Positions 1,410 through 24,408 of a stretch of DNA of 30,433 nucleotides are shown here, piece by piece. This stretch comes from a virus. A model generated the notes under the pieces. It worked only from the letters and a program-made list of their open reading frames with translations, was not told the origin of the DNA and ran no database searches. Both the position numbers and the translations under genes were made by a program. Within the stretch, counting starts at the first letter, position 1. Every line of letters begins with the position of its first letter. The stretch lies in the IMG/VR virus record IMGVR_UViG_3300003890_000011, positions 1 through 30,433 of that record. One strand, written 5' to 3'.

Positions 1410-3329
1410 ATGACGTACATTGAAATTAAAACTCCGTGGGGACCTTTAGGTTACGTTGTATATAAAAGAACTTATGCTAGAAGACTAAAAGAAGATGACG
1501 CAAATTCACCAACAGAAGAATATTTTCAAACTGTAGAACGCATTGTAAAAGCATGTAATAAACAATTGAAAGTTGGATTTACTCCAGAAGAAGAAAAAGA
1601 AGTTAACGACATTCTCCTAAGTCTAAAGGGAACAGTTGCTGGAAGATTTTTTTGGCAGTTAGGAACTAAGACTGTAGATACTCTAGGATTACTTAGTTTA
1701 CAAAACTGCGCATTTACTGTAGTAGATCATCCAATTCGCCCATTTACATGGACAATGGACGCTTTAATGCTTGGGAGCGGAGTAGGATACAATATACAGA
1801 GAGAATATGTATATAAGTTACCTAAAGTACAAAAGAAAAAAATTAAAATTGAAAGAGTTGATACAAAAGATGCAGACTTTATTGTTCCCGATTCTCGCCA
1901 AGGATGGACTAAGCTTTTAGGAAAGGTACTTAAGTCTTATTTCTATTCCGGAGAAGGTTTTACATACTCTACAGTCTGTATTAGAGGCAAGGGTACTCCT
2001 ATTAAAGGATTCGGAGGTTTAGCTTCCGGACCTGAAGACTTAGTTCAAGGAATGACTAACATCTGTAAAGTACTAGACGCTAGAAGGGGAAAAACAGTAA
2101 GACCTATAGATTGTTTGGACGTAATGAATATTATTGGTTCTATAGTCGTTGCCGGAAATGTAAGACGAAGTGCTCAAATTGCTATTGGCGACTTTGATGA
2201 TCTAGAGTTTCTTAATGCAAAGAATTGGGGACAAGGAAATATTCCTAATTGGAGAGCAATGAGTAATAATTCTGTAGTATGTAATGATATAACAAAATTA
2301 CCTCCTCAGTTTTGGGAAGGATATTTTGGTAATGGGGAACCGTACGGACTTATTAATTTAAAGTTAGCTCAATCCTGTGGAAGAACTGGAGAGACTCAAT
2401 ACCCAGATCCTGAAGTGCTAGGATTCAATCCTTGTGCGGAGCAATCGCTAGCTCCTTATGAAACTTGCTGTTTAGCAGAGATACATTTACAAAATATAGA
2501 ATCTAAAGAAGAACTTTTAAAGGTCGCAAAGTATCTATATAGAATTAATAAGCATAGTTTATCTTTACCTTGTCATCATACAGAAACTGAAGAGATAGTT
2601 CATAAAAACATGAGAATGGGAATAGGAGTAACTGGTTATTTAATGGCAAGTGATGAGCAAAGAAGTTGGCTCCCGGAGATATATGCAGAACTAAGAAAGT
2701 TTGATAAAGAATATTCAAAGGCTAATAACTTCCCTGAGAGCATTAAACTTACTACAATTAAACCTAGTGGAACATTGAGTCTACTAAGTGGGGCAACTTC
2801 AGGAGCACATCCTGGATATAGTCATTACTTTATTAGAAGGGTTAGAATGGCTTCTAACATACCTCTTGTAGAAATCTGCAGAACCAATGGTTATCCTGTA
2901 GAATATGAGAAGAACTTTGATGGCAGTGAGAATCGAAATACAGTAGTAGTTTCGTTTCCTTGTTCTTTCCCTGAACATACTAAAGTTGCTAAAGATATGA
3001 CTGCGATTGATCAATTAGAAGTAGTAAAGAGACTACAAACTGAATGGTCTGATAATGCAGTTTCAGTCACTATTTATTACAAAAAAGAAGAATTAGAAAG
3101 CATTAAGGAGTGGTTAAAAAATAACTATAACACTAATCTTAAAACGGTTTCTTTCTTATTGCATAGCGAACATGGATTTGCTCAAGCACCTTTAGAAGAA
3201 ATAACAAAAGAACAATTTGAAGAATTAAGTAAAAAAGTATTGCCAATATCTGGAATGTCTGCTATCATTGAAGATAGTGTATCTTCTGATACTCTTGGTT
3301 GCGAAACTGGTGTGTGTCCCATAAAATAA
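1410..3329 (+). CDS. nrdJ: Class II (adenosylcobalamin-dependent) ribonucleoside-triphosphate reductase
   Basis: Makes deoxyribonucleotides using adenosylcobalamin as radical source. Visible signatures: LQNCAFT with a cysteine at residue 100, LMLGSGVGYN, GNVRRSAQIAIGD, NPCAEQSL (C342 and E344, the thiyl-radical region), a second redox cysteine candidate at C353/C354, and a C-terminal CETGVC (C631, C636) with the CX4C spacing of the swinging redox pair of monomeric class II enzymes. At 639 residues it is about 100 shorter than the Lactobacillus enzyme, but all catalytic parts are present. A strong AGGAGGG lies at 1400-1406. No R2-type subunit or NrdG activase is nearby, as expected for class II. 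The phage depends on host cobalamin. No intein is seen, although phage reductases often carry one. Confidence 0.93.
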   Translation: MTYIEIKTPWGPLGYVVYKRTYARRLKEDDANSPTEEYFQTVERIVKACNKQLKVGFTPEEEKEVNDILLSLKGTVAGRFFWQLGTKTVDTLGLLSLQNCAFTVVDHPIRPFTWTMDALMLGSGVGYNIQREYVYKLPKVQKKKIKIERVDTKDADFIVPDSRQGWTKLLGKVLKSYFYSGEGFTYSTVCIRGKGTPIKGFGGLASGPEDLVQGMTNICKVLDARRGKTVRPIDCLDVMNIIGSIVVAGNVRRSAQIAIGDFDDLEFLNAKNWGQGNIPNWRAMSNNSVVCNDITKLPPQFWEGYFGNGEPYGLINLKLAQSCGRTGETQYPDPEVLGFNPCAEQSLAPYETCCLAEIHLQNIESKEELLKVAKYLYRINKHSLSLPCHHTETEEIVHKNMRMGIGVTGYLMASDEQRSWLPEIYAELRKFDKEYSKANNFPESIKLTTIKPSGTLSLLSGATSGAHPGYSHYFIRRVRMASNIPLVEICRTNGYPVEYEKNFDGSENRNTVVVSFPCSFPEHTKVAKDMTAIDQLEVVKRLQTEWSDNAVSVTIYYKKEELESIKEWLKNNYNTNLKTVSFLLHSEHGFAQAPLEEITKEQFEELSKKVLPISGMSAIIEDSVSSDTLGCETGVCPIK

Positions 3330-6336: not shown

Positions 6337-6822
6337 ATGAAATACCTCTTGTTTCTGGCTTTTTTATTTTCTTGTGGACACGCTCCATTACCTAATCTAG
6401 TTACTTCACAAAATCCTATATATGTAGATCCTGAGGTTATCCCCTATCTCGAAAGATTTGATCTATATGCTAACAATCTAGGAGTAAAGCCTAATTACTC
6501 TAACCTTACTGTTTATAGAACAGATGAGAATCCTTCAGGAAACCAATTAGCAGTATGTACTACGTCCAATACTGGAATTAAACAAATCACCATATACAAT
6601 TACTTCTGGGACACAGCTTCGGACGTAGCCAGAGAGATAGTAGCATTTCATGAACTTTTACATTGTTCATTAAAACAGTCTCATAGAGACAATTCTGTAA
6701 TGCAAGCCAATATGCTTCCAGAAGGAATGTATTTATACTACTATAGTTACTACATTAAAGAAATGTTCGGTCAAATAGAATCTTCTACAGTATTCACATT
6801 TGAACTTTATTTGACAAAATAA
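6337..6822 (+). CDS. Lipoprotein zinc-metalloprotease-like protein (HExxH), paralogue 1
   Basis: 161 residues. A lipoprotein signal ends in LFSC (Cys13 as lipidated residue), so the mature protein would be membrane-anchored outside the cytoplasm. HELLHCSLKQSH carries HExxH plus a third His seven residues on and a Cys directly after the motif; a following NSVMQ resembles the Met-turn region. These are features of HExxHC-type secreted metallopeptidases. A second Cys (AVCTTSN) could pair with the active-site-adjacent one. The next gene is a clear paralogue sharing PI(Y/F)VDPE, the Cys-SN motif, HExLHC...H, S(V/I)M and a (Y/F)IKExFG block. Function in a phage is unknown; envelope remodelling or superinfection exclusion are possibilities. 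Confidence 0.75.
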   Translation: MKYLLFLAFLFSCGHAPLPNLVTSQNPIYVDPEVIPYLERFDLYANNLGVKPNYSNLTVYRTDENPSGNQLAVCTTSNTGIKQITIYNYFWDTASDVAREIVAFHELLHCSLKQSHRDNSVMQANMLPEGMYLYYYSYYIKEMFGQIESSTVFTFELYLTK

Positions 6823-6839
6823 TTGACACTTGGTACAAT
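6811..6839 (+). promoter_or_regulatory. Consensus promoter, likely leaderless transcript
   Basis: Perfect TTGACA (6811-6816), 17-base spacer and TACAAT (6834-6839). The -35 lies in the last codons of the preceding gene. Only six bases separate the -10 from the ATG at 6846, so transcription would begin at or next to the start codon; no Shine-Dalgarno is present. Confidence 0.75.
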
Positions 6840-6845
6840 GTACTG

Positions 6846-7484
6846 ATGAGTATCATCAAACTTATTCGATACATTATGTCCTTTTCTTTCTCGATAAGAG
6901 TCTGCCTATGGACTTTTATTATATCTTCTATTCTCATTCATTACGACTTTGATGGTAATCTTTACAACTATATTGGTACAAATAAACCTATATTCGTAGA
7001 TCCTGAGCTAGTTCCTTTTTATGAACGATTCAAAGAATTTGAAAGAATCTCTGGAAAGGAAGTTTCCCATAAGCATATCTTCATGGTAATATCCGATGGA
7101 TTTACTAAAGACGATGATACTGCGGCTTATTGTGGGGTAAGTAACCACTTCAATCGCTTTATTGTTGTCAATAGAAAATACTTCTCCCAAGCATCTAACG
7201 CTTCAAAAGAAATACTATTCTTCCATGAAGCACTACACTGTCTCTACTACAGAGAGCACAAAGCATATTCTATAATGGAATCCAGAGTATTATTTGACGA
7301 TCTTTACAAAAGAAACTACGACTACTTTATCAAGGAAGCTTTCGGTATAGAATCCACTGTACTGAAGTTTCAGTATAAACCTTATCCTAATGAGGATAAA
7401 CAAACCAAGGATGTGTCTGATGTTAAAAAACCTATTTCTTTTACTGATATTATTCCTAATTTCAGTATTCCTGACTCAGAGTAA
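6846..7484 (+). CDS. Membrane-anchored HExxH metalloprotease-like protein, paralogue 2
   Basis: 212 residues with an N-terminal signal anchor (about residues 14-34, SFSIRVCLWTFIISSILI) rather than a lipobox. The body aligns with the preceding gene: PIFVDPE near residue 48, a Cys-SN segment, FHEALHCLYYREH (HExxHC plus third His), SIMES, and a YFIKEAFG block. A C-terminal extension of about 40 residues is unique to this copy. Start at 6846 fits a promoter six bases upstream and has no Shine-Dalgarno; an internal Met at 6876 also lacks one. Tandem duplication with different membrane attachment (lipid versus helix) suggests divergence in location or target. The 3' end overlaps the next protease gene by 65 bases. 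Confidence 0.7.
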   Translation: MSIIKLIRYIMSFSFSIRVCLWTFIISSILIHYDFDGNLYNYIGTNKPIFVDPELVPFYERFKEFERISGKEVSHKHIFMVISDGFTKDDDTAAYCGVSNHFNRFIVVNRKYFSQASNASKEILFFHEALHCLYYREHKAYSIMESRVLFDDLYKRNYDYFIKEAFGIESTVLKFQYKPYPNEDKQTKDVSDVKKPISFTDIIPNFSIPDSE

Positions 7485-8226
7485 TGCCAAGACTTCTGTT
7501 ATTATTCTAAGCGATGCGACCACTGTTGTATTGCGAGGTCCAGTAATGCCAGGTAATGTAAACGAAGCTTCTATTAAGATTCTAGAGCTTCACCGAACTC
7601 TCCCAAAGAACAAAGCTATTATTCTATATCTCGACACTCCTGGTGGTTCTATTGCTGCAGGTAATCAGTTAATCGAACTAGTGGAAGGTCTTCCTCGTAA
7701 AGTCGTTACAGTTACCTCATTTGCAGCTTCTATGGGGTACCAAATCGTTCAGGCATTCCATACTAGGTATATCCTAGAAAGCGGAGTACTAATGAGTCAC
7801 AGAGCTTCTATTGGTGGACTATCTGGTCAAGTTCCAGGAGAAGCTAATAGTCGTTTAAAGTGGATTTCTGAGACTGTAGAGGAAATGGAAAAGAAAACCT
7901 CTAAGCGTCTTAACATGTCTTTAAAAGACTACAAGGAAGCCATTAGAGATGAGTTGTGGTTGACTGGTAATATTGCTGTGTCTACTAGACATGCGGACAA
8001 AGTAGTCAAGGCTCGTTGTGATAAGTCTCTAGAAGGTACCGTAGAGTCAAGTGTAAATACTATGTTTGGTCCAGTAACTGTAGAAATGCATAAATGTCCT
8101 CTTATCTCTGGTCCTGTCAAAATTAAAATGGATGACTTTATTCGTTCTAATCCTTTTATTTACAGACGTGTAAAAGAAGAATTAGATGGATATTTTTCAC
8201 GATCTAAAGGTTTGTGGTTGTATTAA
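7420..8226 (+). CDS. Exported ClpP/SppA-like serine protease
   Basis: ATG 7420 chosen because AAGGA lies about eight bases upstream; two in-frame ATGs (7390, 7411) are less well served. A signal peptide (hydrophobic residues 5-20, likely cut after SNA23) directs the protein outside the cytoplasm. Clp/crotonase-fold features: LDTPGGSIAAGN (71-82), AASMGY with nucleophile Ser104, MSHRAS with His127, and STRHADKVV with Asp193 as candidate acid. Cys200 and Cys226 might pair in an oxidising compartment. It resembles SppA/NfeD-type or periplasmic ClpP-like proteases. It follows two exported metalloprotease-like genes, making a cluster of three. A cytosolic ClpP paralogue lies at 22795. Confidence 0.8.
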   Translation: MLKNLFLLLILFLISVFLTQSNAKTSVIILSDATTVVLRGPVMPGNVNEASIKILELHRTLPKNKAIILYLDTPGGSIAAGNQLIELVEGLPRKVVTVTSFAASMGYQIVQAFHTRYILESGVLMSHRASIGGLSGQVPGEANSRLKWISETVEEMEKKTSKRLNMSLKDYKEAIRDELWLTGNIAVSTRHADKVVKARCDKSLEGTVESSVNTMFGPVTVEMHKCPLISGPVKIKMDDFIRSNPFIYRRVKEELDGYFSRSKGLWLY

Positions 8227-9270: not shown

Positions 9271-9500
9271 GCTTTCATAACTTTTACATACTAAATAATA
9301 AAGTTAGTATAATGTTGATGAATATCATCTATACTGAAGGTATTAGAACTGGAATATGCACTAAGAACATTACTATATACTTAAATGGAAGGAAGCTTAT
9401 CTCAACTCCATTCCTAATTACAGGATACCAACGATCTACAGCTTTAGAAATACAAAAAACATATGAGAAACTTAAAGCTTATTTAAAGGATGAGAAATGA
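9267..9500 (+). CDS. Hypothetical protein, 77 aa
   Basis: Start placed at ATG 9267, which overlaps the previous stop (ATGA); an upstream ATG at 9243 would overlap more and has no better site. A mixed alpha/beta small protein with a C-terminal helix (STALEIQKTYEKLKAYL). No motif recognised. Ends with another ATGA joint to the HNH gene. Confidence 0.5.
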   Translation: MSFHNFYILNNKVSIMLMNIIYTEGIRTGICTKNITIYLNGRKLISTPFLITGYQRSTALEIQKTYEKLKAYLKDEK

Positions 9501-10012
9501 CGGAAGAATGGAAAGAATTTTACCCTGGTTATTTAGTTTCCAATTTAGGACAAATCAGAAAGCTTGCTTTAAAAAAGAAGAATGTTGAAACTACTAAGAC
9601 TGGTACGAAGCGTGTAGAAACCGCAAGGTACTTATCTTTAATGATTAAGAAAAACTGGTACTATGTCCATAAGATCGTAGCTGCTGCTTTTGTTCCTAAT
9701 CCTAATCCAGCCTTATTCACCGACATAAAGCATTTGAATGGTGATTTAACGGACAATAGAGCAGAAAACCTAGCTTGGGTACATCCAGCAATGATTGAGA
9801 AATACCGTCAAAAAGAAGGCAGTAAAAACTGGTCTACTGGTAAAAACTATAAAGTTCGAGTAAAATACGAAGTACTTATTGGAAACGCTTCTATAGGTAT
9901 GAAGAACCTGGGACTTTTCAATACTAGAGCTGATGCACTAAGGTCTATAGCTCATTGGGAAAAACTTAACGGTAAAGCTGATAGGACTAATAATGACAAG
10001 ACTATCTCATAG
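9497..10012 (+). CDS. NUMOD4-HNH homing-type endonuclease
   Basis: 171 residues. EEWKEFYPGYLVSNLGQIRKL (residues 3-23 region) is a NUMOD4 DNA-binding motif. VHKIVAAAFVPNP, then KHLNGDLTDNRAENLAWV, is the HNH nuclease core with His, Asn and the NLxW signature. The C-terminal half has no domain I recognise, though a helix with ALRSIAHWEK could assist DNA binding. Overlaps its neighbours by 4 and 20 bases. As a free-standing gene next to a recombination nuclease it is probably a mobile endonuclease; it could instead act in phage DNA processing. Confidence 0.85.
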   Translation: MTEEWKEFYPGYLVSNLGQIRKLALKKKNVETTKTGTKRVETARYLSLMIKKNWYYVHKIVAAAFVPNPNPALFTDIKHLNGDLTDNRAENLAWVHPAMIEKYRQKEGSKNWSTGKNYKVRVKYEVLIGNASIGMKNLGLFNTRADALRSIAHWEKLNGKADRTNNDKTIS

Positions 10013-11524: not shown

Positions 11525-12358
11525 ATGACAAAATACCAAAAATGGTACGATGAGTTAATTGCTAGGGCTAAAGAAAGAAATTACTTTAGTCCTAATTACA
11601 AAATAGGAATTCATCGTTGTTCTTTTCCTGTAGAAACTCATCATATTGTCCCTAGATCTATGGGAGGAAGCGATGAAGAATCTAACCTGGCAGTATTAAC
11701 TTTAAAAGAACATTATATTGCTCATTATTTATTGACTAAAATTTACAAAGAAAATGATAAAGTAATAGAAGCTTTTTTTATTATGTGCAATAGATCTGGA
11801 AGATCATCAAATACTTATACCGAACTTCGAACAAAGTTTTATAAACTAAGTTCTTTGCGAAGTAAAGAGTATTTTAGTAAACCTGAAAATATTGAAAAAT
11901 TTAGACAAATAGGTTTGGATTTGGCTAAGAATCCTGACTACATAAAAAAAGTTAGTGAGGGTGTTAGAAAAGCCTATGCTACTACCGATCTTAAAGATAA
12001 AATATCTAAAGCGTCTAAAGGGTTTTGGAATAATCCTGAGTATGTAAAAAAACAAATGGATTCTAAGTGGACTCATCGAACGGATGAATACAGAAAAAAA
12101 TCTTCAGAAAGAATGAAAATTTATAGTAGTCTTCCTGAAACTAAAAAAAGAAGATCTGAACAGTATAAAACTAGTAATTTTAATAGAAGTAGAAAAGTTA
12201 TTGACCTAAATACAAATGAAGTATATAATAGTGCTATGGACCTATCTCTAAAATTAGGTTTAAAGTATGTTACTGTAAAACGAAGACTATACAAAAATCC
12301 ACATAAATATGGTTATATGTGGTTAGACGAATACAAAAACGGAGGAACAAATGGGTAG
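11525..12358 (+). CDS. HNH homing endonuclease with NUMOD3/NUMOD1-like DNA-binding repeats
   Basis: 277 residues. The HNH core is near the N-terminus: ETHHIVPRSMGGS, NLAVLTLKEHYIAH (about 38-68). The middle is lysine-rich with repeated short helices ending in (S/A)xG or NPxY blocks, such as ISKASKGFWNNPEYVKK, typical of NUMOD3. The C-terminus (KVIDLNTNEVYNSAMDLS, then TVKRRLYKNPHKYGYMWL) resembles NUMOD1 helix-turn-helix. No Shine-Dalgarno precedes its ATG. Its 3' end carries GGAGG, which serves the ERF gene starting inside its last codons, so the insertion is stitched seamlessly into the operon. Probably a mobile intruder between the 11259 and ERF genes. Confidence 0.9.
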   Translation: MTKYQKWYDELIARAKERNYFSPNYKIGIHRCSFPVETHHIVPRSMGGSDEESNLAVLTLKEHYIAHYLLTKIYKENDKVIEAFFIMCNRSGRSSNTYTELRTKFYKLSSLRSKEYFSKPENIEKFRQIGLDLAKNPDYIKKVSEGVRKAYATTDLKDKISKASKGFWNNPEYVKKQMDSKWTHRTDEYRKKSSERMKIYSSLPETKKRRSEQYKTSNFNRSRKVIDLNTNEVYNSAMDLSLKLGLKYVTVKRRLYKNPHKYGYMWLDEYKNGGTNG

Positions 12359-13635: not shown

Positions 13636-15621
13636 ATGTACGTTAGATTATGCGAAAGTTTAAATAATGTCGGCAAATTAGTTCCAGTCAATGAAGTTCA
13701 TAAATATATTACAGACGTAAATAAAGATTACTACACATCTATATTTCAATATAATGAGTCCCAAAAAACTCAAGCTGAAGAAAGCATTGAAGTTCAAAAA
13801 GATGGGAAAACTATTAATAGACTTAAAGGTGTCTCTGGCATTAGAGATGTCATCACTAATAAGTTAGTATTTGACTTTGACTCAGATAAGTTAAAAGACG
13901 CTCAAAGAGATACACTAGAGCTTTTAAATCGACTAGAGGATAAAGGCGTAAACGTAGATACTGAAGTCAATATTTGCTTTAGTGGATCTAAAGGGTTTTC
14001 TGTAGAATTAAATACTACTGAAACCTTCAACCCTAATCAATTTAAAAACATCGTACATAATTTGGCACTAGATTTAAAGACATTTGATCCTAAGATTATT
14101 GATCCCAGTAGAATCTTTAGACTACCCTTTACTAAGCATCCCAAGACTGGTTTATATAAAACTCCTATATCTAAAGAAGAACTTTCTATTTTAAGTATTG
14201 ATGAGATTAAACTCCTTGCTAAACAAAAACCTGAAGTAAACGTTGAGTATCTTTCATATACCACAACACTTCCTAGAGAGATTAAGGATCTTAGAAATGT
14301 ATCGGTAGAAAAGCAATTCCCGGTAGTATTAAGCAATGAAACAATTGCTGAATTAGATTTAGTTAACAAACCATCATGGCTTTCAAATTGGAAATACGCC
14401 CTTTCTAGAGGATTCTTTAAGGAAGGCACTAGAAGCTACGCTTTGACTATTCTAGGGGCTACATGTAGAAATCAAAGTATGTCTAAGACTCAAGCATACT
14501 ACTTCTTAAAAGCTGCCGCTGATGAACAAGTACAGAGATTTGGTGGATCTAAGTTTGAGAAGAATGAGATTTGGAATAATATTGTAGAAGTTGTGTATGG
14601 AGGAAACTGGCAAGGAGGCTCTTGGTCTGAAGACAATTTTCCCATTGATTTAAAAAACTTCTTAATAAGTCATAACATACCTAGAGAAGGTAATAATAAC
14701 AATCTTGAAATGGTTGAAACTATTGATGAAGGATTTGACGAGTTTTTAAACTACGCTAAAGATATTGACAAAAATACCATGAAGTTTGGTATACCTTCTT
14801 TAGATAAAGTATTAAAAATAAGAAAAGGACATTTGATCGGATTACTCGCCCCACCTTCAATAGGAAAAACTTCATTTGCCGTAACATTAGCTAATAATAC
14901 CAGCAAAGAAGGTAATCTAGTATATTTTGCTTCTTATGATATGTATAAAAACAACGTATATCAAAAGTTGATTCAAAGACATACAGGATTAAGTGAAGAA
15001 GATATTTATAAAGTATTTACCACTCAGAACACTGAGCGAATTGAACAGTTTAGAAATATTCTTGCTACAGAATATAGGAATGTAGTATTTTGTTTTAAGT
15101 CCGGTCAGACTATTGAACAACTTAAGCAATCTATTAAAGAAGTTGAAAAACAAAGATCACAAAAGGTAGACTTAGTCATTGTCGATTATCTAGAGTTAGT
15201 AATTACTGATAAGAGCGATCCTACTGCCGCGTCTGCAGCAGCCGCTCAAGGTCTAAGAGAAGTTGCTAATGAAGGTCGAGTTGTTTTGAAACTTTTGCAA
15301 CCAAACAAGCTAAGTAATAAACCTAACCAGCCTATGACTAGTGCTACGGCAGCAAAGGGCAGCGGTTCCATACAACAAGCCGCGACTGCAATTATTACAT
15401 TGCATAGACCTGGATTCCATTCTAGATTACCGAACGAAGATAAATTTATAGGTCTTGATTGTGTAAAAAATAGAAATGGAGCTTTATTCTCTTTAGATTT
15501 TTATTGGGATGGTAAAACACAGACTTTTAGTGAAATTGATGATGTAGGTCGTATTAAACTAGAGAATGTTAAAAAAATGATAAGAGAATTAGAGAATGAA
15601 GATAAAGAGGATGAGTGGTAA
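13636..15621 (+). CDS. AEP-type primase fused to DnaB-like replicative helicase
   Basis: AAGGAGGG at 13621-13628 selects ATG 13636; the upstream ATG 13618 sits before that site. 661 residues. The N-terminal third resembles archaeo-eukaryotic primases: VFDFDSD (D80, D82 as metal ligands), FSGSKGF (about 115-121), and RIFRLPFTKHPKTGL (159-173). A PriCT-like helical region (GFFKEGTRSYALTILG, about 259-274) follows. The C-terminal half is a RecA/DnaB-type ATPase: LAPPSIGKTSF Walker A (K411), VDLVIVDYLELV Walker B (D517), and a Lys/Gln-rich loop. Unwinds and primes DNA at the fork. No separate DnaG-type primase is seen. The next gene overlaps its stop by one base. Confidence 0.87.
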   Translation: MYVRLCESLNNVGKLVPVNEVHKYITDVNKDYYTSIFQYNESQKTQAEESIEVQKDGKTINRLKGVSGIRDVITNKLVFDFDSDKLKDAQRDTLELLNRLEDKGVNVDTEVNICFSGSKGFSVELNTTETFNPNQFKNIVHNLALDLKTFDPKIIDPSRIFRLPFTKHPKTGLYKTPISKEELSILSIDEIKLLAKQKPEVNVEYLSYTTTLPREIKDLRNVSVEKQFPVVLSNETIAELDLVNKPSWLSNWKYALSRGFFKEGTRSYALTILGATCRNQSMSKTQAYYFLKAAADEQVQRFGGSKFEKNEIWNNIVEVVYGGNWQGGSWSEDNFPIDLKNFLISHNIPREGNNNNLEMVETIDEGFDEFLNYAKDIDKNTMKFGIPSLDKVLKIRKGHLIGLLAPPSIGKTSFAVTLANNTSKEGNLVYFASYDMYKNNVYQKLIQRHTGLSEEDIYKVFTTQNTERIEQFRNILATEYRNVVFCFKSGQTIEQLKQSIKEVEKQRSQKVDLVIVDYLELVITDKSDPTAASAAAAQGLREVANEGRVVLKLLQPNKLSNKPNQPMTSATAAKGSGSIQQAATAIITLHRPGFHSRLPNEDKFIGLDCVKNRNGALFSLDFYWDGKTQTFSEIDDVGRIKLENVKKMIRELENEDKEDEW

Positions 15622-16361
15622 TGAAATTTACTAGAAAATTTAAAAAAGATTTAACAGGACTAACTTTTGGTAAACTTAAGGTTGTAGAATACTCTCACAG
15701 AAAAAATGACTTAGTTTACTGGAAGTGTTCTTGTGAATGTGGTGGAAGTAAAGAAGTTCCGACTTTTAAACTTACAGGAAGTCGAGTTCGTAGTTGTGGT
15801 TGTTTATTAAAAACTCACTATAATGATATAACTGGTAAAAAATTAAACAGACTTACTGCTATAAAATATCACAGTAAAAATAGCGCCAACAATAGAATAT
15901 GGATTTTTAAATGTGATTGCGGGAAAGAGTTTAAAGCTGAATATAGTGATTTTGTACGGGAAAAAGTAAAAAGTTGCGGATGTTTGACTATAATTTCTGC
16001 AAAATCTCCCAAAAGTAAGTATAGTAGACCTGTTAATGAAAAATATAACGAATATAAATTTAGAGCTAAGAAAAATGGTATAAAATTTGATTTATCTAAA
16101 GATGAGTTTTTGAGTATTATAAAAAGTAACTGTAATTATTGCGGAGAATCTCCTTCGCAATGTAAATTTGACAGAACTAGAAATTTTACGGAAATGTTAA
16201 ACGGTATTGACAAAGTAGATAACGACTCAGGATACATCATGGAAAATTGCGTTCCTTGTTGTACAGTTTGTAATCTTGCTAAAAGGAATATGGGAGTTGA
16301 CGTATTTCTAGATTGGATCTCTAGAGTTTCCGATAATCTAAGAACTAAGGGGTTAATTTAA
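15621..16361 (+). CDS. HNH homing-type endonuclease with two zinc-finger repeats
   Basis: ATG 15621 overlaps the preceding stop (TAATG); a GTG at 15615 is a weaker alternative. The N-terminal half has two related zinc-finger repeats, each with CxC, about 25 residues, then SCGCL (first with CSCECGG, second with CDCG). The C-terminal part carries CNYCG and NGIDKVDNDSGY, NCVPCCTVCNLAKRNM, an HNH-type nuclease with the GxDRxDN-like core and cysteine pairs. Composition is visibly more A/T-rich than the helicase. Sits between primase-helicase and polymerase genes, typical of mobile endonucleases in replication loci. Confidence 0.85.
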   Translation: MKFTRKFKKDLTGLTFGKLKVVEYSHRKNDLVYWKCSCECGGSKEVPTFKLTGSRVRSCGCLLKTHYNDITGKKLNRLTAIKYHSKNSANNRIWIFKCDCGKEFKAEYSDFVREKVKSCGCLTIISAKSPKSKYSRPVNEKYNEYKFRAKKNGIKFDLSKDEFLSIIKSNCNYCGESPSQCKFDRTRNFTEMLNGIDKVDNDSGYIMENCVPCCTVCNLAKRNMGVDVFLDWISRVSDNLRTKGLI

Positions 16362-16648
16362 TGGACGAATTATTTGTATCGGAGTCGGATAGCGTCTATA
16401 CCGTTATACAAAAAGAAATTGAAATAGTTAAGCAAGAATGTTCTCGACTAGATAATGATGCCATGGTGGATGAATGCTACAACATCTCGTTAAGATTTCA
16501 CCATTTTGAAGTAATTAACATAGTTAACGAATACTTTAAGATTGGCTACATTAGTCCCGAACAAAGGCTCCGACTTGACTCTTTCTATGTTTTAGTGCAT
16601 ACTGAATTATGTTGGGGGGATGATGGAAAGATTCTACATATTAGATGA
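16361..16648 (+). CDS. Hypothetical protein, 95 aa
   Basis: Start in a TAATG overlap with the HNH stop. Acidic, helical protein (KEIEIVKQECSRLDND, LRFHHFEVINIVNEYF); no motif recognised. Its last 29 bases overlap the polymerase start. May be a polymerase or helicase accessory by position, but nothing in the sequence shows this. Confidence 0.55.
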   Translation: MDELFVSESDSVYTVIQKEIEIVKQECSRLDNDAMVDECYNISLRFHHFEVINIVNEYFKIGYISPEQRLRLDSFYVLVHTELCWGDDGKILHIR

Positions 16649-18320
16649 TGAAAACCTCAAGTCTATGCGGGACTATCTTTCTACAGTAAAATATACTGTA
16701 AAAGAAGACCTTATTTTAACAGATGAATTCGAGTTCGAGCTAGACAAAAAGTATGTTTCTCTCCTCACTACTTTGAAGTCTAGTTCGGAATATTCTGACC
16801 CTCTTATATATGGAAAGGACTCCACATTAGGGGTTACAGCCATAGAAATCATGGACGACGAACTATGGCTTTTTAAACGCGACGGGACTATAGAGAAACG
16901 TCCTCATTACTTCTGGGTAATGTCTACTAGACCATTAGACTCTCATTTCGAGAGACTTGACGGAAATCAGCACTACAAGTACATTCGTTACTTCACCACT
17001 AAAAACGCATACTACGCCTTTCTAAAGCACGCCGAAAATCGTAAGTATGACGTATTCACTATTTACAATTCCAAAGAAGCTGCAATGGTACTAAACGGTA
17101 TTACCTCGTATAAGGGTATGACTTTGGACGATCTAGGCATACTAGCATTCGATATAGAAAGTGCCGGATTGACTCAGGATAGTAAGTCAAATGTATTTCT
17201 AATTACTAACGTCTTTAAAAAGAACGGTGTAATTACCGAGAAGCACTTCAGATTAGATAGGTTTGAAAATACTGGTGCAATGATTGATGAATGGTGCAAT
17301 TGGGTGCAATCTGTAAATCCTGACATTATTACCGGACATAACATAAACGGATATGACTTACCTTATCTCCATCATGTTGCTAAGCTCTATGGCACCACTC
17401 TTAAGCTTGGTAAGGACATTAGTGAACCTTTCTTTAGTACAAAGGAATCTCAGTATAGAGTGGATGGTACTCAGAGCTGGACATATAAAAGAATTGGTAT
17501 TTTTGGAAGACAGATTATAGACGGTATGTTTCTAGCTGTTAAGTACGATATTGGTAGAAAGTACTCAAGTTGGGGACTAAAGCAGATTGCTCAAGCTGAG
17601 GGACTTGTAAAGGAAGATCGGCAATTCTACGATGCTTCATTAATTGCTAAGAATTGGAAAGATCCAATAGAGAGAGAAAAGATTGTGCAATACGGTCTTG
17701 ATGATGCAATGGATTCTTTGAAGCTTTTTGAGTTGATGATCCCTGCATATTTCTATTCGTCTATGTCTATACCTAAACCATTCCAATCTATTATTGAAGG
17801 AGCTAGCGGTAGCTGGATTAACTCGATATTGATTAGAGGATACCTTCAAGAAGATCACAGCATACCCAAGGCTACTGAACTAACTGCTCACGTAGAAGGT
17901 GGGATTAGTTTTGCAGTCCCTGGCGTTTATAGAAACCTTTTTAAGGTAGATTTAAAAAGTGCATATCCTTCTCAGATTTTGAGGTTCCAATTATCGGACA
18001 AACATAAAGATCCAAAAAGTTACTTTTATAAATTAGTCAAGTTTTTTACTGAGCAACGTTTTGAAATGAAACGTTTAGGAAAAGAAACTGGACTAAGGCT
18101 ATACCAGGATCGTGACGCAGCGAATAAAATATTTATTAACAGTGCCTATGGAGCTTGTAATACTCCAGGATTAAACTTTAATTCTCCCGAAATTGCTGCT
18201 ATAATAACACTTGAGACTAGAAAAGTTATCGACCTAGCGTTGATATGGGCTAGTGGGAAAAATAAAGAATATTGGATTAGTGAATTTAAAAAGAAAACAG
18301 GAAGAGATGAAAATGACTAG
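16620..18320 (+). CDS. DNA polymerase family B, N-terminal piece (exonuclease plus palm motifs A and B)
   Basis: 566 residues. 3'-5' exonuclease: ExoI AFDIES (D178, E180), ExoII ITGHNINGYDLPYL (D246), ExoIII YGLDDAMDS (Y358, D361 or D362). Palm: FKVDLKSAYPS motif A (D444) and NKIFINSAYGA motif B (K503, N507, Y510). It stops after a KKTGRDEND tail, before motif C, which is in the separate ORF at 18842. Removing 18315-18850 would rejoin both parts in one frame. Start: two adjacent ATGs at 16620 and 16623 follow a GGGGGG run; either may be used. Together with the C-terminal piece this is the phage replicative polymerase with proofreading. No protein-priming TPR region was evident. Confidence 0.92.
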   Translation: MMERFYILDDENLKSMRDYLSTVKYTVKEDLILTDEFEFELDKKYVSLLTTLKSSSEYSDPLIYGKDSTLGVTAIEIMDDELWLFKRDGTIEKRPHYFWVMSTRPLDSHFERLDGNQHYKYIRYFTTKNAYYAFLKHAENRKYDVFTIYNSKEAAMVLNGITSYKGMTLDDLGILAFDIESAGLTQDSKSNVFLITNVFKKNGVITEKHFRLDRFENTGAMIDEWCNWVQSVNPDIITGHNINGYDLPYLHHVAKLYGTTLKLGKDISEPFFSTKESQYRVDGTQSWTYKRIGIFGRQIIDGMFLAVKYDIGRKYSSWGLKQIAQAEGLVKEDRQFYDASLIAKNWKDPIEREKIVQYGLDDAMDSLKLFELMIPAYFYSSMSIPKPFQSIIEGASGSWINSILIRGYLQEDHSIPKATELTAHVEGGISFAVPGVYRNLFKVDLKSAYPSQILRFQLSDKHKDPKSYFYKLVKFFTEQRFEMKRLGKETGLRLYQDRDAANKIFINSAYGACNTPGLNFNSPEIAAIITLETRKVIDLALIWASGKNKEYWISEFKKKTGRDEND

Positions 18321-18855
18321 AGGTAGAAAAACTGTAGAATGTTCTAGATGTAAAAAAACTAAATTGCATTTTGGACTTGGTATGTGTAGCGCTTGTTTAC
18401 GTAGAACTAAACGAGAAACAAAACCTGAATTTTATTTAGGAACGTGCTATTCAGAAATGACTAGAAGAGTAACTCGCTTTGATCCAAAAAGACCTAGATA
18501 CTTTGGAAAAGAAATATGTAGAAAAGAAGAATTTATTAATAGGTTTTTACATGATGAGGAATTCCTAAGACTATTTAAGGGGTGGCAGGATTCTGGATTT
18601 AAACGTAGGTTTTCTCCATCTATAGATCGAGTAGATAACGACAAAGACTATACTATTGATAATATGATGTTTATTATACATCATGAAAATTCTAAAAAAG
18701 ACAATGGTAAAAAAATAAAATTAATTAAAGATAACGAAGTATTAATTTTTAATACCCATACAGAAGGTGCTAAATTTTTAAAAGTAAGTCCTAATGATTT
18801 TTCAAAATATAAAAGATTAAAACAATGTAAAGGATGGAACTTTGAAGAATTATAA
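18313..18855 (+). CDS. HNH homing endonuclease splitting the DNA polymerase gene
   Basis: ATG 18313 chosen with AGGAAGAG upstream; ATG 18307 is an alternative. About 180 residues. N-terminal zinc finger CSRCKK, then CSACLRR. HNH core SPSIDRVDNDKDYTIDNM followed by FIIHHENSKKDN. The C-terminal part (TEGAKFLKVSPNDFSKYKR) could be DNA-binding. Its first codons lie inside the end of polymerase piece 1, and its last ones overlap polymerase piece 2, so it fills the interruption with almost no spare sequence. It probably cuts an uninterrupted copy of the polymerase gene, then spreads by repair. A/T-rich relative to the polymerase. Contrary explanation: an intron, judged unlikely because there is no room for a ribozyme core. 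Confidence 0.88.
   Translation: MTRGRKTVECSRCKKTKLHFGLGMCSACLRRTKRETKPEFYLGTCYSEMTRRVTRFDPKRPRYFGKEICRKEEFINRFLHDEEFLRLFKGWQDSGFKRRFSPSIDRVDNDKDYTIDNMMFIIHHENSKKDNGKKIKLIKDNEVLIFNTHTEGAKFLKVSPNDFSKYKRLKQCKGWNFEEL
18315..18850 (+). mobile_element. Inferred insertion interrupting polB (HNH gene)
   Basis: Joining base 18314 to 18851 restores a continuous polymerase frame reading ...GRDEN-YNFIIGPVDTDS. The 536 bases removed coincide with the HNH gene. Exact ends are inferred; a one- or two-codon shift is possible. No terminal repeats are evident. Confidence 0.5.
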
Positions 18856-19606
18856 TTTTATTATTGGTCCCGTAGATACCGATTCCGTTTCTTTCTGTAA
18901 AGCAGATCAAAGTCCTTTTTCTGAAGAGGAATTAAAGTCTCTTTTAAAAGAATTAAATGATATTAGTCCGGAATTCATGGTATGGGAAGATGACGGGTAT
19001 TATGAAGCTTGTTTGTCAATAAAGGCTAAGAATTACGTATTAAAAACCAAAAATGGAGAAAAGAAATATAAAGGTTCTGCATTTAAAGACCAAAAGAAAG
19101 AACCTGCACTAAAGGAACTTATGTTTGAAATAGTGGATTGTATGTTAGACGGTACAAGCTCTCTCACAGAGGTATACCACCGCTACATTCAAGAAGCTAT
19201 GAACATTGAAGATATCTCTAGATGGGCAATTAAGAAGAGTATTACCAAAAAGCTACTTACAGGTACTCGCAAAAACGAGACTAAAGTAATGGATGCCATA
19301 GACGGTGACTCAGTTCAGGAAGGGGACAAAGTGTATCTTTACTGGAATATTGAGGGTGAGGTTCAGGATGTCGCCAAAGGCGAGCCAGTATTCTACAAGG
19401 ATGGTAGACCTAAAATGATACCAAATAGGATATTAAAGAAGATCGATGAGTTTGACGGAAACTACGATCACCTCCATTATGTCAAAAGAGTATACGATAC
19501 CGTATCCATCCTAAAGACCGTATTTGACATGGAAGAGATTCCCAAGTATCATAGTTCTAAGTCAGCTCATTTGCTTGAGCAGTTTAAAGGGGAAAGTAAT
19601 GTCTAA
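18842..19606 (+). CDS. DNA polymerase family B, C-terminal piece (motif C, thumb)
   Basis: 254 residues, starting at TTG 18842. No ATG lies between the HNH gene and motif C, and AAAGGA at 18829-18834, inside the HNH gene, is correctly spaced for the TTG. GPVDTDSVSF near residues 10-18 supplies catalytic Asp12/Asp14 (motif C), KKYKGSAFKDQKKEP is the KxKG-like region, and the remainder is thumb domain. Alone it lacks motifs A and B; it must assemble with the 16620 piece to be active. Overlaps the next gene by eight bases. Confidence 0.88.
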   Translation: MKNYNFIIGPVDTDSVSFCKADQSPFSEEELKSLLKELNDISPEFMVWEDDGYYEACLSIKAKNYVLKTKNGEKKYKGSAFKDQKKEPALKELMFEIVDCMLDGTSSLTEVYHRYIQEAMNIEDISRWAIKKSITKKLLTGTRKNETKVMDAIDGDSVQEGDKVYLYWNIEGEVQDVAKGEPVFYKDGRPKMIPNRILKKIDEFDGNYDHLHYVKRVYDTVSILKTVFDMEEIPKYHSSKSAHLLEQFKGESNV

Positions 19607-20245: not shown

Positions 20246-20508
20246 GAATAGTGCTTTATAATCAACATACTGCAAATTCTTTTATTCAAGCTAGATTGCA
20301 TCTTCCTTTTATTTTTCTCAATAAGACTGTAGGATGGTTTGAAAGATCTACTCTTATTAGTGGTATAAAAGCGCCTACGTCTTTTTTAATAGAGCATACC
20401 GAATACCTTAAGATAAGAGATAATGATAGTAAAGTAGAATGTTTAGAGATAAAAGTAATACTGTTAGGTTTTGGATTTAGTTTACATTTTAGGAGAGAAA
20501 ATGGTTAA
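20242..20508 (+). CDS. Hypothetical protein, 88 aa
   Basis: ATGA overlap with the preceding stop. Beta-rich sequence with several Phe/Leu segments (LHLPFIFLNKTVGWFE, IKVILLGFGFSLHF). No motif, signal or TM clearly present. The last bases contain AGGAGAG, the ribosome-binding site of the following phosphoesterase. Family unknown. Confidence 0.5.
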   Translation: MRIVLYNQHTANSFIQARLHLPFIFLNKTVGWFERSTLISGIKAPTSFLIEHTEYLKIRDNDSKVECLEIKVILLGFGFSLHFRRENG

Positions 20509-22780
20509 GAAATACGTATATACTAGTTACATACCAGGATCTTCCATTAACGAAGATTTCCTTCGAATATTAGAAAACTATTGTGCCTTAAACAATGCCG
20601 AACTTAAAGTAGTTCTTACAGCCGCTCCTAATAGGCAGGATCAGGGACTTGTTTTAAGTCGTCTAATTCCCTATGTTATTCAATCTGACTGTAAGATAAA
20701 CGACAACTTATTCTTTGTTGACTTAAGAGCTAATGCTTCTTCTATGGACCCCCTCAGTGGCACGGATGCTATTGCCAATGCTAAGGGTAGCCTTGTTTTG
20801 GCTGCCCCCAAGCATCGGTTTAAATCAGTTGCTAGGAGCTTAAAACACAACAAATCTCCTAGAGGTATCTGGTGTACAGGTACTATCTCAGAACCTTACT
20901 ATAAGCCCAATAAAGCCGGTTTAAAGGCTGATGGAATGCACAAGCTTGGGGCACTTGTTATAACCGTCGTAAATGATGATATTTTCCACATTAGACAGCT
21001 ATCCTATGGCGAACATGGCGTATATGACATGAACGCTCTATACACCAAAAATAAGCGTCTAAAGGTTAATCCTGAAGGTCTTGTACTGGGGGATCTACAT
21101 CCTCCCTTTGTCAACAACGACGTACTAAAGAAGACTCAGTTCCTTATGTCTAAACTAAACCCTAAAAATGTGGTATACCATGACATATTTGATGCTGCTA
21201 GTATCTCTCATCATGTTGAAGGTAAATTTATTACAAAAGTTAATGTTTTTAACTTTCTACCTTCTCTTCAGGAAGAGGTATCTTTGACAGCTAGAGTTAT
21301 GAGTTCTTTAGTAAACTGGCTGCCAGAAGCTGAGCACTTTGTAGTAAAATCCAATCATGACGAACATTTGGATCGGTACTTGGACGAAGGTAGATATCTA
21401 AAGGACTATCAGAATAAAAAGTTAGCTATAGAGCTAGCTGAGGCTAAACTGTCCGGAAAAGATGTAGTAGAGTACTCTTTAAAAAAGGATAATCCTGATT
21501 TAGAGCAAATAAATTTTTTACAGAGAAACAATACATTAACCATAGCTGGAATAGAGTGTTCTAATCATGGAGATTATGGTGCAAACGGTGGAAAGGGGTC
21601 GTCAGTTCAACATGGACTATCTTTTAGTGGTAAAGTAGTTACGGGACATTGTTTAAGCGAAAATCATTCGGTAAACGTAAAGGGAAAGGGATTTATTCCA
21701 ATAAGAGAAGTTACTTTAAACGATTATGTTTTAAGTTATGATTATACAACTAAAACAAATGAATGGACTAAAGTTCAAGAAAAAATATATGTCCCTCAAT
21801 ACTCAGGCACAATGGTAGAGATTGGATATAATGGAATTTATAAACAAGATGTTAGTTTAAATCATCATTTTTCATTATTAGATGGTTCATATATTTCATT
21901 AACAGATTTGGTTAGTACTCGAGGGGCGGGAGAAATTCCTTTAGTTGCAGAATCCAAAACCTATAATAAATCTATTGGTGAAATTGAGGAGCTTATTGTA
22001 AGATTAAAAATTGCCATAGCTGCAGATGGAAACATAGATAATACTAACATTAGATTTCACTTAAAAAAACCTAGAAAAATAGAAAGACTTAAATCGTTTC
22101 TTAATAAATTAAAAATTCCTTACAGTGAGAATTTATCAAAAACAGGATCTACTAAAATTCTTTTAAAGAAAACGGATAGTTTTTTAAGTCAAGAATTATA
22201 TAATGAATTAAAGACCGATAAGACTTTAAATTATTCTTTATTGACTGCCAATATGGATGTTAAAAATATAGTTTTACATGAATGTACTTTATGGGATGGA
22301 TCATTGTTGACTAAAGGGGCGCGACAATTTTGTACATCAAAAAAACACGAAGCTGAGATTATTTGTTCATTAGCTAATGAAATGGGATATAGATCTTCGC
22401 TTATTTCAAAAAAAGATGGAGGATTTGTTGTTACATTTAATATTGCAAGAAAAATTCCTTCTCAGCTAAAAAACTACGGAAAAGATTCTATAAAATTTAA
22501 TGTAGTTCCTAGACACGTAGAGAATATTGAGCTATTTTGTTTAAAGACTGCTTATCATAATTTCTGGGTACGGAACGAAGAAACTGGACAAGTTTCATTA
22601 ACAGGAAATTCCCATACCCCAGAAATTGGAATATATGGGAACTATATATGTGGTACTATGACTGACTTAAGTCTGCCATACACTAACGACTCTGGTACTT
22701 CAGGGTGGCTAAACACTCATACTATTATCTATCCAGATGGTAACAGAACTCATATCCATTTGATTGATACTAAAAAATAA
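20501..22780 (+). CDS. Calcineurin-like metallophosphoesterase interrupted by an intein
   Basis: ATG 20501 chosen for AGGAGAG at 20491-20497. The 759-residue precursor would yield a 439-residue host protein after splicing. Metallophosphoesterase motifs: GLVLGDLHPPF (D-x-H), a YHDIFD segment (second metal region), KSNHDEHLD (NHD/E), SNHGDYG, and VTGH joined to SHTPEIG across the intein (GHxH). The N-terminal roughly 170 residues form a separate domain I do not recognise. The catalytic motif is split between its first and second His, so only spliced protein should be active. It might be a nuclease/phosphatase for host or phage DNA metabolism; relation to T5 A1-type phosphoesterases is a guess. 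Confidence 0.87.
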   Translation: MVKKYVYTSYIPGSSINEDFLRILENYCALNNAELKVVLTAAPNRQDQGLVLSRLIPYVIQSDCKINDNLFFVDLRANASSMDPLSGTDAIANAKGSLVLAAPKHRFKSVARSLKHNKSPRGIWCTGTISEPYYKPNKAGLKADGMHKLGALVITVVNDDIFHIRQLSYGEHGVYDMNALYTKNKRLKVNPEGLVLGDLHPPFVNNDVLKKTQFLMSKLNPKNVVYHDIFDAASISHHVEGKFITKVNVFNFLPSLQEEVSLTARVMSSLVNWLPEAEHFVVKSNHDEHLDRYLDEGRYLKDYQNKKLAIELAEAKLSGKDVVEYSLKKDNPDLEQINFLQRNNTLTIAGIECSNHGDYGANGGKGSSVQHGLSFSGKVVTGHCLSENHSVNVKGKGFIPIREVTLNDYVLSYDYTTKTNEWTKVQEKIYVPQYSGTMVEIGYNGIYKQDVSLNHHFSLLDGSYISLTDLVSTRGAGEIPLVAESKTYNKSIGEIEELIVRLKIAIAADGNIDNTNIRFHLKKPRKIERLKSFLNKLKIPYSENLSKTGSTKILLKKTDSFLSQELYNELKTDKTLNYSLLTANMDVKNIVLHECTLWDGSLLTKGARQFCTSKKHEAEIICSLANEMGYRSSLISKKDGGFVVTFNIARKIPSQLKNYGKDSIKFNVVPRHVENIELFCLKTAYHNFWVRNEETGQVSLTGNSHTPEIGIYGNYICGTMTDLSLPYTNDSGTSGWLNTHTIIYPDGNRTHIHLIDTKK
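21650..22609 (+). mobile_element. Intein with LAGLIDADG (DOD) endonuclease, 320 aa
   Basis: In-frame insertion at residues 384-703 of the precursor. It begins with Cys (CLSENHSVNVK, an intein N-terminal Hint block), ends with LTGN, and the next extein residue is Ser (+1 nucleophile). The penultimate residue is Gly, not the common His, which is known in some inteins. YHNFWVR supplies a block F-like His. Two LAGLIDADG-type motifs appear: LKIAIAADGN and ECTLWDGS, each with its acidic residue. The flanking host sequence joins as VTGH-SHTPEIG. Confidence 0.9.
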
Positions 22781-22794: not shown

Positions 22795-23370
22795 ATGTCT
22801 AGACGTAACCCAGAAAATATTCAGACATTCCACATAAGCCACTTGTACACACCGACAAGAACTATTCTTATGTATGGAGATGTTGACATAGACATGTTTG
22901 AAAATGTTGCCAAGAATTTATTAATTTTAGATTCTACAGAAGGTACCATAACTATCTATTTAAATTCTGGTGGAGGAGATCTGACAGAAGCAATGGCAAT
23001 ATACGACATGATTAGTAATTGCAAAAACTATGTAAGAATTATCGTAGTTGGTCAGGCTTCTAGCGCTGCTAGTATTATTCTTCAGGCTGCTGACGAGAGA
23101 CTAATGACTGAAAACTCTTACGTAATGATACATGCTGGAGAAGAAGGCACTGAAGGACATCCTGAAATTAAAAAACGTTGGGATGCTAAGCTTCTTAAAG
23201 ACAATCAGTGGATGGAAGATTTGTACCTAGAAAAGATTAAAAATAAGAAGCCTAAATTTCCTAGATCTAAACTTGCAGAAATGTTAAAGTTTGATACAAT
23301 ACTAGAAGCTAAAGAATCAGTAGAAATGGGGTTAGCAGATGGATTATTTACAGATACGGATCGGGGATAG
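22795..23370 (+). CDS. clpP: ClpP-type serine protease, cytosolic
   Basis: 191 residues without a signal peptide. LNSGGGDLTEAMAIYD is the family's oxyanion-region motif. GQASSAASI supplies Ser90 at the position of the ClpP nucleophile, YVMIHAG supplies His113, and SVEMGLAD supplies Asp182 as candidate acid, so the triad appears intact. Length is typical of ClpP. No Clp ATPase is visible, so it may use host ClpX/ClpA or act on a specific protein such as a prohead or host regulator. It overlaps dUTPase by 32 bases and is probably cotranscribed with it. The exported paralogue at 7420 differs strongly. Confidence 0.88.
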   Translation: MSRRNPENIQTFHISHLYTPTRTILMYGDVDIDMFENVAKNLLILDSTEGTITIYLNSGGGDLTEAMAIYDMISNCKNYVRIIVVGQASSAASIILQAADERLMTENSYVMIHAGEEGTEGHPEIKKRWDAKLLKDNQWMEDLYLEKIKNKKPKFPRSKLAEMLKFDTILEAKESVEMGLADGLFTDTDRG

Positions 23371-23992
23371 TGTTATCATTGAAGATTGTCGTCATATCCA
23401 TAATGAGCTTCATGAGGGAGCTGGTGGAAGAATCGTTGGAGAAGCTGATGATAATGGTGAATATCTAGTTGACTTCTGGTCAACTCGCAAACGAATACCT
23501 CCTTCTAAATTCAAACAACTGTTACCTAAACAAGAGGTTACACAACCTACTATAGAGGTAGATAATAGTCTCTATGTAAAGTTTAAAAGACTTTCACCTT
23601 CCGCAGTACTTCCCAAGTATTCTAGAGAAGGAGACTGTGGTATGGATCTTACAGCAGTTTCATCTTACATTGATGAATTTGGTAATTATTGCTATGATAC
23701 TCAACTTGCTGTAGCTATTCCTAAAGGATATGTCGGATTGCTATATCCTAGAAGTTCATTAAGCAAGTACGGTTTAATACTGACCAATCACGTTGGGGTC
23801 GTGGATTGCAATTTTCGAGGGTCCATGGTCTTTAAATTTAGAGCATCTTCTCCAAATCCTAAAGTATTTGCTGTTGGAGAAAGAATTGGACAATTACTTA
23901 TAATGCCTTGTCCTAATATTTCTGTAGAAGAAACCGATGAGTTAGATGATACTAGTAGGGGGTCTCATGGATGGGGATCAAGCGGGGCGTAA
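23339..23992 (+). CDS. dut: dUTPase with N-terminal extension
   Basis: 217 residues. Motifs of trimeric dUTPases in order: EGDCGMDLTA (about 97-106), YPRSSL (136-141), GVVDCNFRG (153-161, with catalytic Asp156), VGERIGQL (179-186), and RGSHGWGSSG (207-216). Motif V has Trp where Phe or Tyr is usual. The first 70 residues (IGDSVIIEDC, GRIVGEADDNGEYLVDF) look like a KOW/SH3-like domain not found in standard dUTPases. Start ATG 23339 lies inside clpP with a GGGG site. Lowers dUTP and supplies dUMP for thymidylate synthesis. Confidence 0.9.
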   Translation: MDYLQIRIGDSVIIEDCRHIHNELHEGAGGRIVGEADDNGEYLVDFWSTRKRIPPSKFKQLLPKQEVTQPTIEVDNSLYVKFKRLSPSAVLPKYSREGDCGMDLTAVSSYIDEFGNYCYDTQLAVAIPKGYVGLLYPRSSLSKYGLILTNHVGVVDCNFRGSMVFKFRASSPNPKVFAVGERIGQLLIMPCPNISVEETDELDDTSRGSHGWGSSGA

Positions 23993-24408
23993 TGTCTTAC
24001 GAAATAGATAAAAAGACCAAGGGAAAGATCATTAATGCCTTACGTAGGCTAACCTATTCCTATCCTCCTAGAAACGAAGTTAAACGTCTTAGAAAGGTCG
24101 ATAAATCGCTTTATTCTTGCGAACTATGCCACAGGTACTGCTATGAAGGAAAAAGCAATAAAACGTACATAGAATACGCTCATAAGTATCCTGATAGAGA
24201 AATAGTAATGGAGAAGCCTCAAATCGACCATACTTTACCGGTAGTGCCTATAGAGAAGGGATGGAACTGGAATTGGGACGATATAATAAACAACATGTTC
24301 TGTAATATTAAAGGACTAAAGTGTTTATGCTCTAAATGTCATCAAGCTAAAACTGCAGAAGAACAAACACAAAGAGCCGAACTTAGAAGACAATCCAAAA
24401 TTGACTAA
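23992..24408 (+). CDS. HNH-family nuclease protein
   Basis: ATG 23992 in a TAATG overlap with the dUTPase stop; an upstream ATG at 23971 also exists. About 138 residues: CELCHRYC near residue 43, QIDHTLPVVP (about 78-87), then a CLCSKCHQAKT segment (about 112-122). This CxxC...DHxxPV...CxxCHxxKT arrangement is the HNH type often encoded close to phage packaging genes. It may assist packaging, act as a mobile nuclease, or process DNA. No large terminase is recognisable nearby in the window. Confidence 0.78.
   Translation: MSYEIDKKTKGKIINALRRLTYSYPPRNEVKRLRKVDKSLYSCELCHRYCYEGKSNKTYIEYAHKYPDREIVMEKPQIDHTLPVVPIEKGWNWNWDDIINNMFCNIKGLKCLCSKCHQAKTAEEQTQRAELRRQSKID

Follow-up and report, generated by a model that had tools for sequence, protein, structure and literature searches.

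Family B DNA polymerases (PolB) and other phage replicases that are encoded in two pieces include: (i) the gp43A/gp43B split PolB of phages 25 and 44RR, of which the phage 25 pieces co-purify and are polymerase-active, with either an untranslated spacer or a Seg-type endonuclease gene between the two genes, depending on the phage (PMC2988022), (ii) the PolB of Pseudomonas phage MIJ3, which occupies two ORFs with an HNH ORF between them and carries intein halves (PMC6892783), (iii) the PolB of Methanothermobacter thermautotrophicus, which is composed of two polypeptides (PMC7776575), and (iv) the split DNA polymerase of the OM43 phage MEP401 type, in which most group members have a small ORF of no recognised function between the parts (PMC10580990). 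For gp43A/gp43B, a review notes the same uncertainty over the order of split and insertion that is met at the locus described here (PMC2988022).

A further two-piece PolB is found in the window, a 30,433-nt stretch of the IMG/VR virus record IMGVR_UViG_3300003890_000011 (Table 1). The polymerase is encoded as two ORFs, pol-N and pol-C, which flank an HNH ORF in yet another frame. The ORFs are as the original prediction had described them, with Exo I-III and motifs A and B in one, motif C in another and the HNH gene in a third frame, and the family B motifs Exo I-III, A, B and C follow one another in order across the two polymerase ORFs. The pol-N piece matches DNA_pol_B_exo1 (2e-14) and PHROG DNA polymerase (3e-35), and pol-C alone matches no family. 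A joint profile, made of the joined window protein and two uninterrupted relatives, matches pol-N at 3e-273 and pol-C at 4e-112 in a genome search and no other gene; both pieces are also detected by a profile made of intact relatives only. Joining 18314 to 18851, the rejoining that had been claimed from the letters, indeed yields a single frame of 816 aa that can be aligned with intact relatives over the full length. The join carries 19 extra residues compared to the short-loop intact polymerases. These residues are not HNH sequence, as an extension at this position is common to split and intact long-loop relatives; a reading of them as an element-derived tail of the HNH insert was dropped, L087 (a split relative) and the intact long-loop relatives also being extended there. 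The pol-N tail also contains the stretch AGGAAGAG, upstream of the HNH start codon. The stop codon of pol-N (18318-18320) follows closely on the HNH start codon, and 11 nt ahead of the HNH stop codon lies the beginning of the pol-C TTG, with AAGGATG upstream. This stop/start layout of pol-N, HNH and pol-C appears suited to coupled translation, which would be the presumed mechanism.

Table 1. Features of the split PolB locus (positions are those of the window).
Feature	Position	Strand	Remarks
pol-N, N-terminal PolB piece	16620..18320	+	frame 3, 566 aa; family and profile matches
Exo I (DIE)	17151..17159	+	invariant columns D178-E180
Exo II (N241 to D246)	17340..17357	+	invariant columns
Exo III (Y358 to D362)	17691..17705	+	invariant columns
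Putative conversion tract, L087-like	17893..19111	+	edges approximate; unlike sister L096
Motif A (DLKSAYPS)	17949..17972	+	alignment with relatives, in pol-N
Motif B (KIFINSAYG)	18126..18152	+	alignment with relatives, in pol-N
pol-N C-terminal tail KEYWISEFKKKTGRDEND	18264..18317	+	missing in short-loop intact polymerases; resembles tail of split L087
HNH endonuclease ORF	18307..18855	+	ATG 18307 or 18313; about 180 aa; frame 1; PHROG matches
Insert, 536-bp	18315..18850	+	as set by the in-frame join
Shine-Dalgarno-like AAGGATG	18830..18836	+	sequence; upstream of the pol-C TTG start
pol-C, C-terminal PolB piece	18842..19606	+	frame 2, TTG start 18842, 254 aa
Motif C (DTDS)	18875..18886	+	in pol-C; retained in 17/17 split genes

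Relatives of the window polymerase are recovered by profile searches, which return 61 loci from IMG/VR together with three close MAG contigs (with the labels Bacteroidia, Bacteroidales and Flavobacteriaceae); with duplicates removed, 57 distinct polymerases remain, that of the window counted in. Direct protein scans with each window piece return no relatives, the chosen peptides being too specific, and no phage record matches pol-C by tblastn. Split genes account for 17 of the 57 polymerases and intact genes for 40 (13 long-loop and 27 short-loop). The comparison with uninterrupted relatives that the original prediction had proposed places the split site at positions 491-499 of the 715-position profile, and all 17 splits fall there. 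Single breaks at other positions are limited to two (L089 and L112); these frame breaks are treated as likely sequence errors and the genes counted as intact, L088 being intact across the L089 break. Chance is excluded, as 17 of 57 genes break at the same profile position compared to two single breaks elsewhere. The same arrangement recurs in four assemblies for L134 and in two for L137. At the level of sequence, the comparison establishes the loop between motifs B and C as a recurrent splitting and insertion site in this phage clade. Among the individual relatives, intact L102 (4959-7442) has a loop at the split site that is far longer than in any other, and the polymerase ORF of L143 (4986-7754; 922 aa) has a C-terminal extension of ~200 aa past the profile.

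The gaps of the 17 split genes hold an HNH gene in three cases (of two types), a GIY-YIG gene in two, small ORFs of no recognised function in five and nothing in seven. The HNH ORF of the window matches PHROG endonuclease VII and HNH families (5e-7), with no Pfam HNH model above cut-off. In L154, a homologue (34% identity, E 8e-27) occupies the same site, and the pol-N pieces of L154 and the window are 46% identical; the C-terminus of the L154 HNH matches the NUMOD-like domain of I-HmuI below cut-off. The third HNH, in L091, is of the other type. The GIY-YIG genes, above the Pfam cut-off, reside in the gaps of L108 and L156, while the gaps of L107, L113, L131, L141 and L150 contain small ORFs without a known nuclease domain. 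In L141, ~1 kb (6530-7544) with three ORFs, one with DUF6939 and none a recognised nuclease, separates pol-N from pol-C. The empty splits are those of L087, L096, L104, L123, L134, L137 and L155, in which the pieces overlap or lie at most 32 nt apart. In each split gene, the likely pol-C start sits just ahead of the motif C strand. No close relatives of the window HNH are found in IMG/VR, none is found elsewhere in nine related records (by a search without a positive control), and no allele pair differing solely by the window HNH is found among the relatives. The HNH is one of several occupants and, thus, need not have made the cut. The original prediction had cast the HNH gene as the maker of the split, and the comparison does not establish this part: seven of the 17 split genes have no endonuclease, including L087, whose palm segment is the closest found to that of the window, and in others the point is occupied by GIY-YIG genes or by ORFs unrelated to them. 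Either the split predates the endonuclease, or it may be retained once an endonuclease is lost.

The surrounding region of the window is rich in candidate HNH/homing elements. Two more HNH or homing endonuclease genes are located at 15615-16361 and 11525-12358 (PHROG 3e-33 and 2e-41), one directly after a helicase gene, and two ORFs (9497-10012 and 23971-24408) are HNH-like by eye without NCBIfam support. A T5 A1-like DNA transfer protein gene (20501-22780) has an in-frame, intein-like insertion of ~300 aa, around which some homologues align in two pieces; no NCBIfam intein model matches the insertion. Other genes of the window include an adenosylcobalamin-dependent ribonucleoside-triphosphate reductase above the NCBIfam cut-off (1410-3329) and two separate ClpP-like protease genes, both below curated cut-offs (7390-8226 and 22795-23370).

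Several mechanisms could in principle restore a single chain from the two pieces. A self-splicing intron (group I or of another class) bearing the HNH gene would join the exons as RNA, and HNH genes are frequent in phage introns, those of DNA polymerase genes among them. Such an intron is nonetheless extremely unlikely at this locus: the 536-bp insert is taken up by the HNH ORF, with no space outside it for the conserved RNA core of a group I intron, no Rfam family reaches threshold in the window, no intron family is matched around the site even at E 10, and the pieces have their own start and stop codons. Seven splits at the same point also lack intervening sequence worth splicing; the pieces of these pairs overlap or lie within 32 nt of each other and, thus, no intron is involved in them. 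Weak Rfam matches in the vicinity of the site, of which the best has E 0.046 and a score well short of the gathering threshold, are attributed to chance. Least probable of all is a fractured gene in which split intein halves trans-splice the pieces and the HNH is a free-standing homing gene. Such an arrangement is reported for Pseudomonas phage MIJ3, whose PolB is interrupted by an HNH gene (PMC6892783). In the window, only ~18 residues follow the conserved part of pol-N and few precede that of pol-C, too few to accommodate intein blocks, and no such blocks are visible at the inner ends. Ribosomal frameshifting or bypassing that fuses the pieces is very unlikely. The pieces overlap in several relatives with frames one base apart, which speaks for it, yet the frame relation differs among the six overlapping pairs (one direction in five, the other in one), no common slip site is seen by eye, a start codon recurs at a fixed place, and the gaps, which reach about 1 kb, could not be crossed by this means.

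Two adjacent ORFs of the window together make up one polymerase, and most likely the two coupled polypeptides would fold into a single enzyme. That a single catalytic centre has to be rebuilt from two polypeptides is supported by the placement of motifs A and B versus C in separate ORFs, by the lack of room for an intron or intein, by the retention of motifs in related split genes and by the lack of a second polymerase in the record. An active polymerase elsewhere in the genome had been named as the rival to this claim; profile searches of the 81,833-bp record find no second PolB or PolA, pol-N and pol-C being the sole polymerase matches, and the record is possibly incomplete, such that another polymerase may lie beyond it. 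That the split gene is a dead remnant, with replication carried out by another enzyme of the phage genome or by a host polymerase, is unlikely. The possible incompleteness of the record and the existence of host polymerases leave some room for this explanation; against it, all motifs are retained in the window and DTDS in each of the 17 split genes, split alleles are widespread, and split relatives have dN/dS values under 1. For the pair L107 and L108, with the swapped tract described below left aside, dN/dS is 0.079/0.413 (about 0.19) for pol-N and 0.018/0.056 (about 0.31) for pol-C, the latter from few changes.

The fold was assessed on a model of the intact relative L144, which stands in for the window pieces. 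The L144 model has a PolB fold (mean pLDDT 89.2), with archaeal PolB enzymes as the best PDB matches (E 2e-29). The cut region corresponds to a coil between a helix (525-561) and a strand (595-599), and this coil has the lowest block confidence of the model (pLDDT about 58). A cut in the coil leaves secondary structure intact and, thus, makes re-assembly plausible. The cut had been placed inside the palm domain, which is correct by sequence order but needs qualification, as the cut falls in a length-variable coil in the least confident part of the L144 model.

Segments around the site have evidently been swapped between otherwise distinct polymerases, that of the window included. About 200 codons around the window site group with L087, which is split without an endonuclease, while the remaining gene groups with L096. 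The window gene shows 50-82% identity to L096 as far as ~110 codons upstream of the site, 35-49% in the stretch that reaches from ~70 codons upstream to 90 codons downstream, and 72-75% at its distal end, whereas identity to L087 is 62-75% around the site and 25-55% further out; on the two sides of the insert, the tract is 69% and 68% identical to L087 in DNA. The tree away from the site pairs the window with L096 (99, a starred branch), and the tree near the site pairs it with L087 (80) inside a group with L144, L100 and L109 (87). AU tests reject the window with L096 near the site (p=5.6e-7) and the window with L087 away from it (p=1.6e-5), p-values that are somewhat optimistic because the clades were named after the identity profile was seen. 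A similar case is that of L107 and L108, with flanks that are 93-98% identical in DNA and about 836 and 1138 nt at the site that do not align. Near the site, rejection of the L107 and L108 clade is only marginal (p=0.048), and the L104 group withstands the test (p=0.34); thus, not every swap case is proven. The clade contains intact and empty-split relatives together with conflicting trees around the site, and the tracts of the window and of L107/L108 are the footprint that would be expected of homing with co-conversion. An incongruent tract also fits any recombination centred at the site.

The tree of the whole gene requires 12 changes of the split state, at least nine of them forced by starred branches, compared to a mean of 14.8 with shuffled labels (32 of 500 shuffles are as low); the split state clusters only weakly on this tree. 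The tree near the site needs 9 changes, with no shuffle as low, and the tree away from the site needs 13 (86 of 500 shuffles as low). For 14 of the 17 split genes, the closest relative in a 50-column stretch at the site is itself split, compared to 3 to 10 elsewhere. This pattern fits a split transferred along with its flanks, and convergence beside a new start codon could contribute to the clustering near the site. As to the order of events, the split may have preceded invasion, or an endonuclease may have made the split and then been lost. An explanation that agrees on the two-polypeptide enzyme and concerns only the history and its driver is that the split came first, by a frameshift or new start codon in a long loop, with genes landing later in a harmless gap and the swaps being ordinary homologous recombination. 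The seven empty splits and the ORFs other than endonucleases in five gaps speak for this course of events, as does the start of the window HNH, which coincides, position for position, with that of pol-C in L087. Homing, instead, predicts what is seen in endonucleases of two classes at a single point and in conversion-like tracts with their centre there, and the split-first history, while possible, is doubtful.

The preferred account joins a two-polypeptide PolB, a recurrent splitting and insertion loop and homing with co-conversion, and is given a probability of roughly 0.7 as a whole; the TTG as the start codon of pol-C in the window counts against it. According to this account, pol-N and pol-C would be translated as two polypeptides from one operon, serially via the stop/start overlap, and would then re-assemble into one active site, with pol-N supplying the exonuclease and motifs A and B and pol-C supplying motif C and the thumb. 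The cut lies in the loop that follows the helix of motif B and precedes the strand of motif C. The free-standing endonuclease would most likely cut alleles that lack it and be copied into them together with its flanks and, with these, the split; the endonuclease may later be lost and the split retained. A broader proposal, to which even odds are given, is that the motif B-C loop is a standing homing hub, in which split alleles spread by endonuclease-driven conversion, the endonucleases change over time and the two-subunit polymerase outlasts each of them, such that a selfish element repeatedly makes a one-piece replicase two-subunit.

Free-standing endonucleases are known to divide enzymes in individual cases. 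This clade provides a whole series for one site, with uninterrupted genes, splits with nothing in the gap, splits that hold HNH, GIY-YIG or other cargo, and swapped tracts. Such a series makes it testable whether a homing element creates and spreads a two-subunit enzyme or settles in an existing gap. The pieces also offer natural positions at which to divide a replicative polymerase between motifs B and C.

The split PolB of the window shares features with several known systems. The literature searched, mostly outside subscription papers, describes no polymerase clade in which a single site takes so many states. The split polymerase of the OM43 phage MEP401 type is of family A, with an intron suggested by its authors, whereas that of the window is of family B. 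The MIJ3 polymerase has intein halves, while none are visible in the window pieces. The split PolB of M. thermautotrophicus is likewise a two-polypeptide family B enzyme, but is cellular. Its small subunit carries motif C, which would place the cut near that of the window; to our knowledge, it is not reported as a homing site. In the nrdA-a/nrdA-b genes of phage Aeh1, the free-standing HNH gene mobE divides an essential enzyme into two working polypeptides without an intron, and the HNH of the window is likewise without an intron; the enzyme differs, and in the window clade the HNH is one of several occupants. The T4-like Aeromonas phages 44RR2.8t and 25 also encode a phage PolB in two adjacent genes. 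In 44RR, 43A ends after motif A and 43B has motifs B and C; the cut is thus between motifs A and B and the site differs from that of the window, where the cut is between B and C. The window polymerase also belongs to another phage clade, one with several endonuclease types and many empty cases. Split phage polymerases are already known from the T4-like phages 44RR and 25, and the case of the window differs from that of 44RR in the site of the split.
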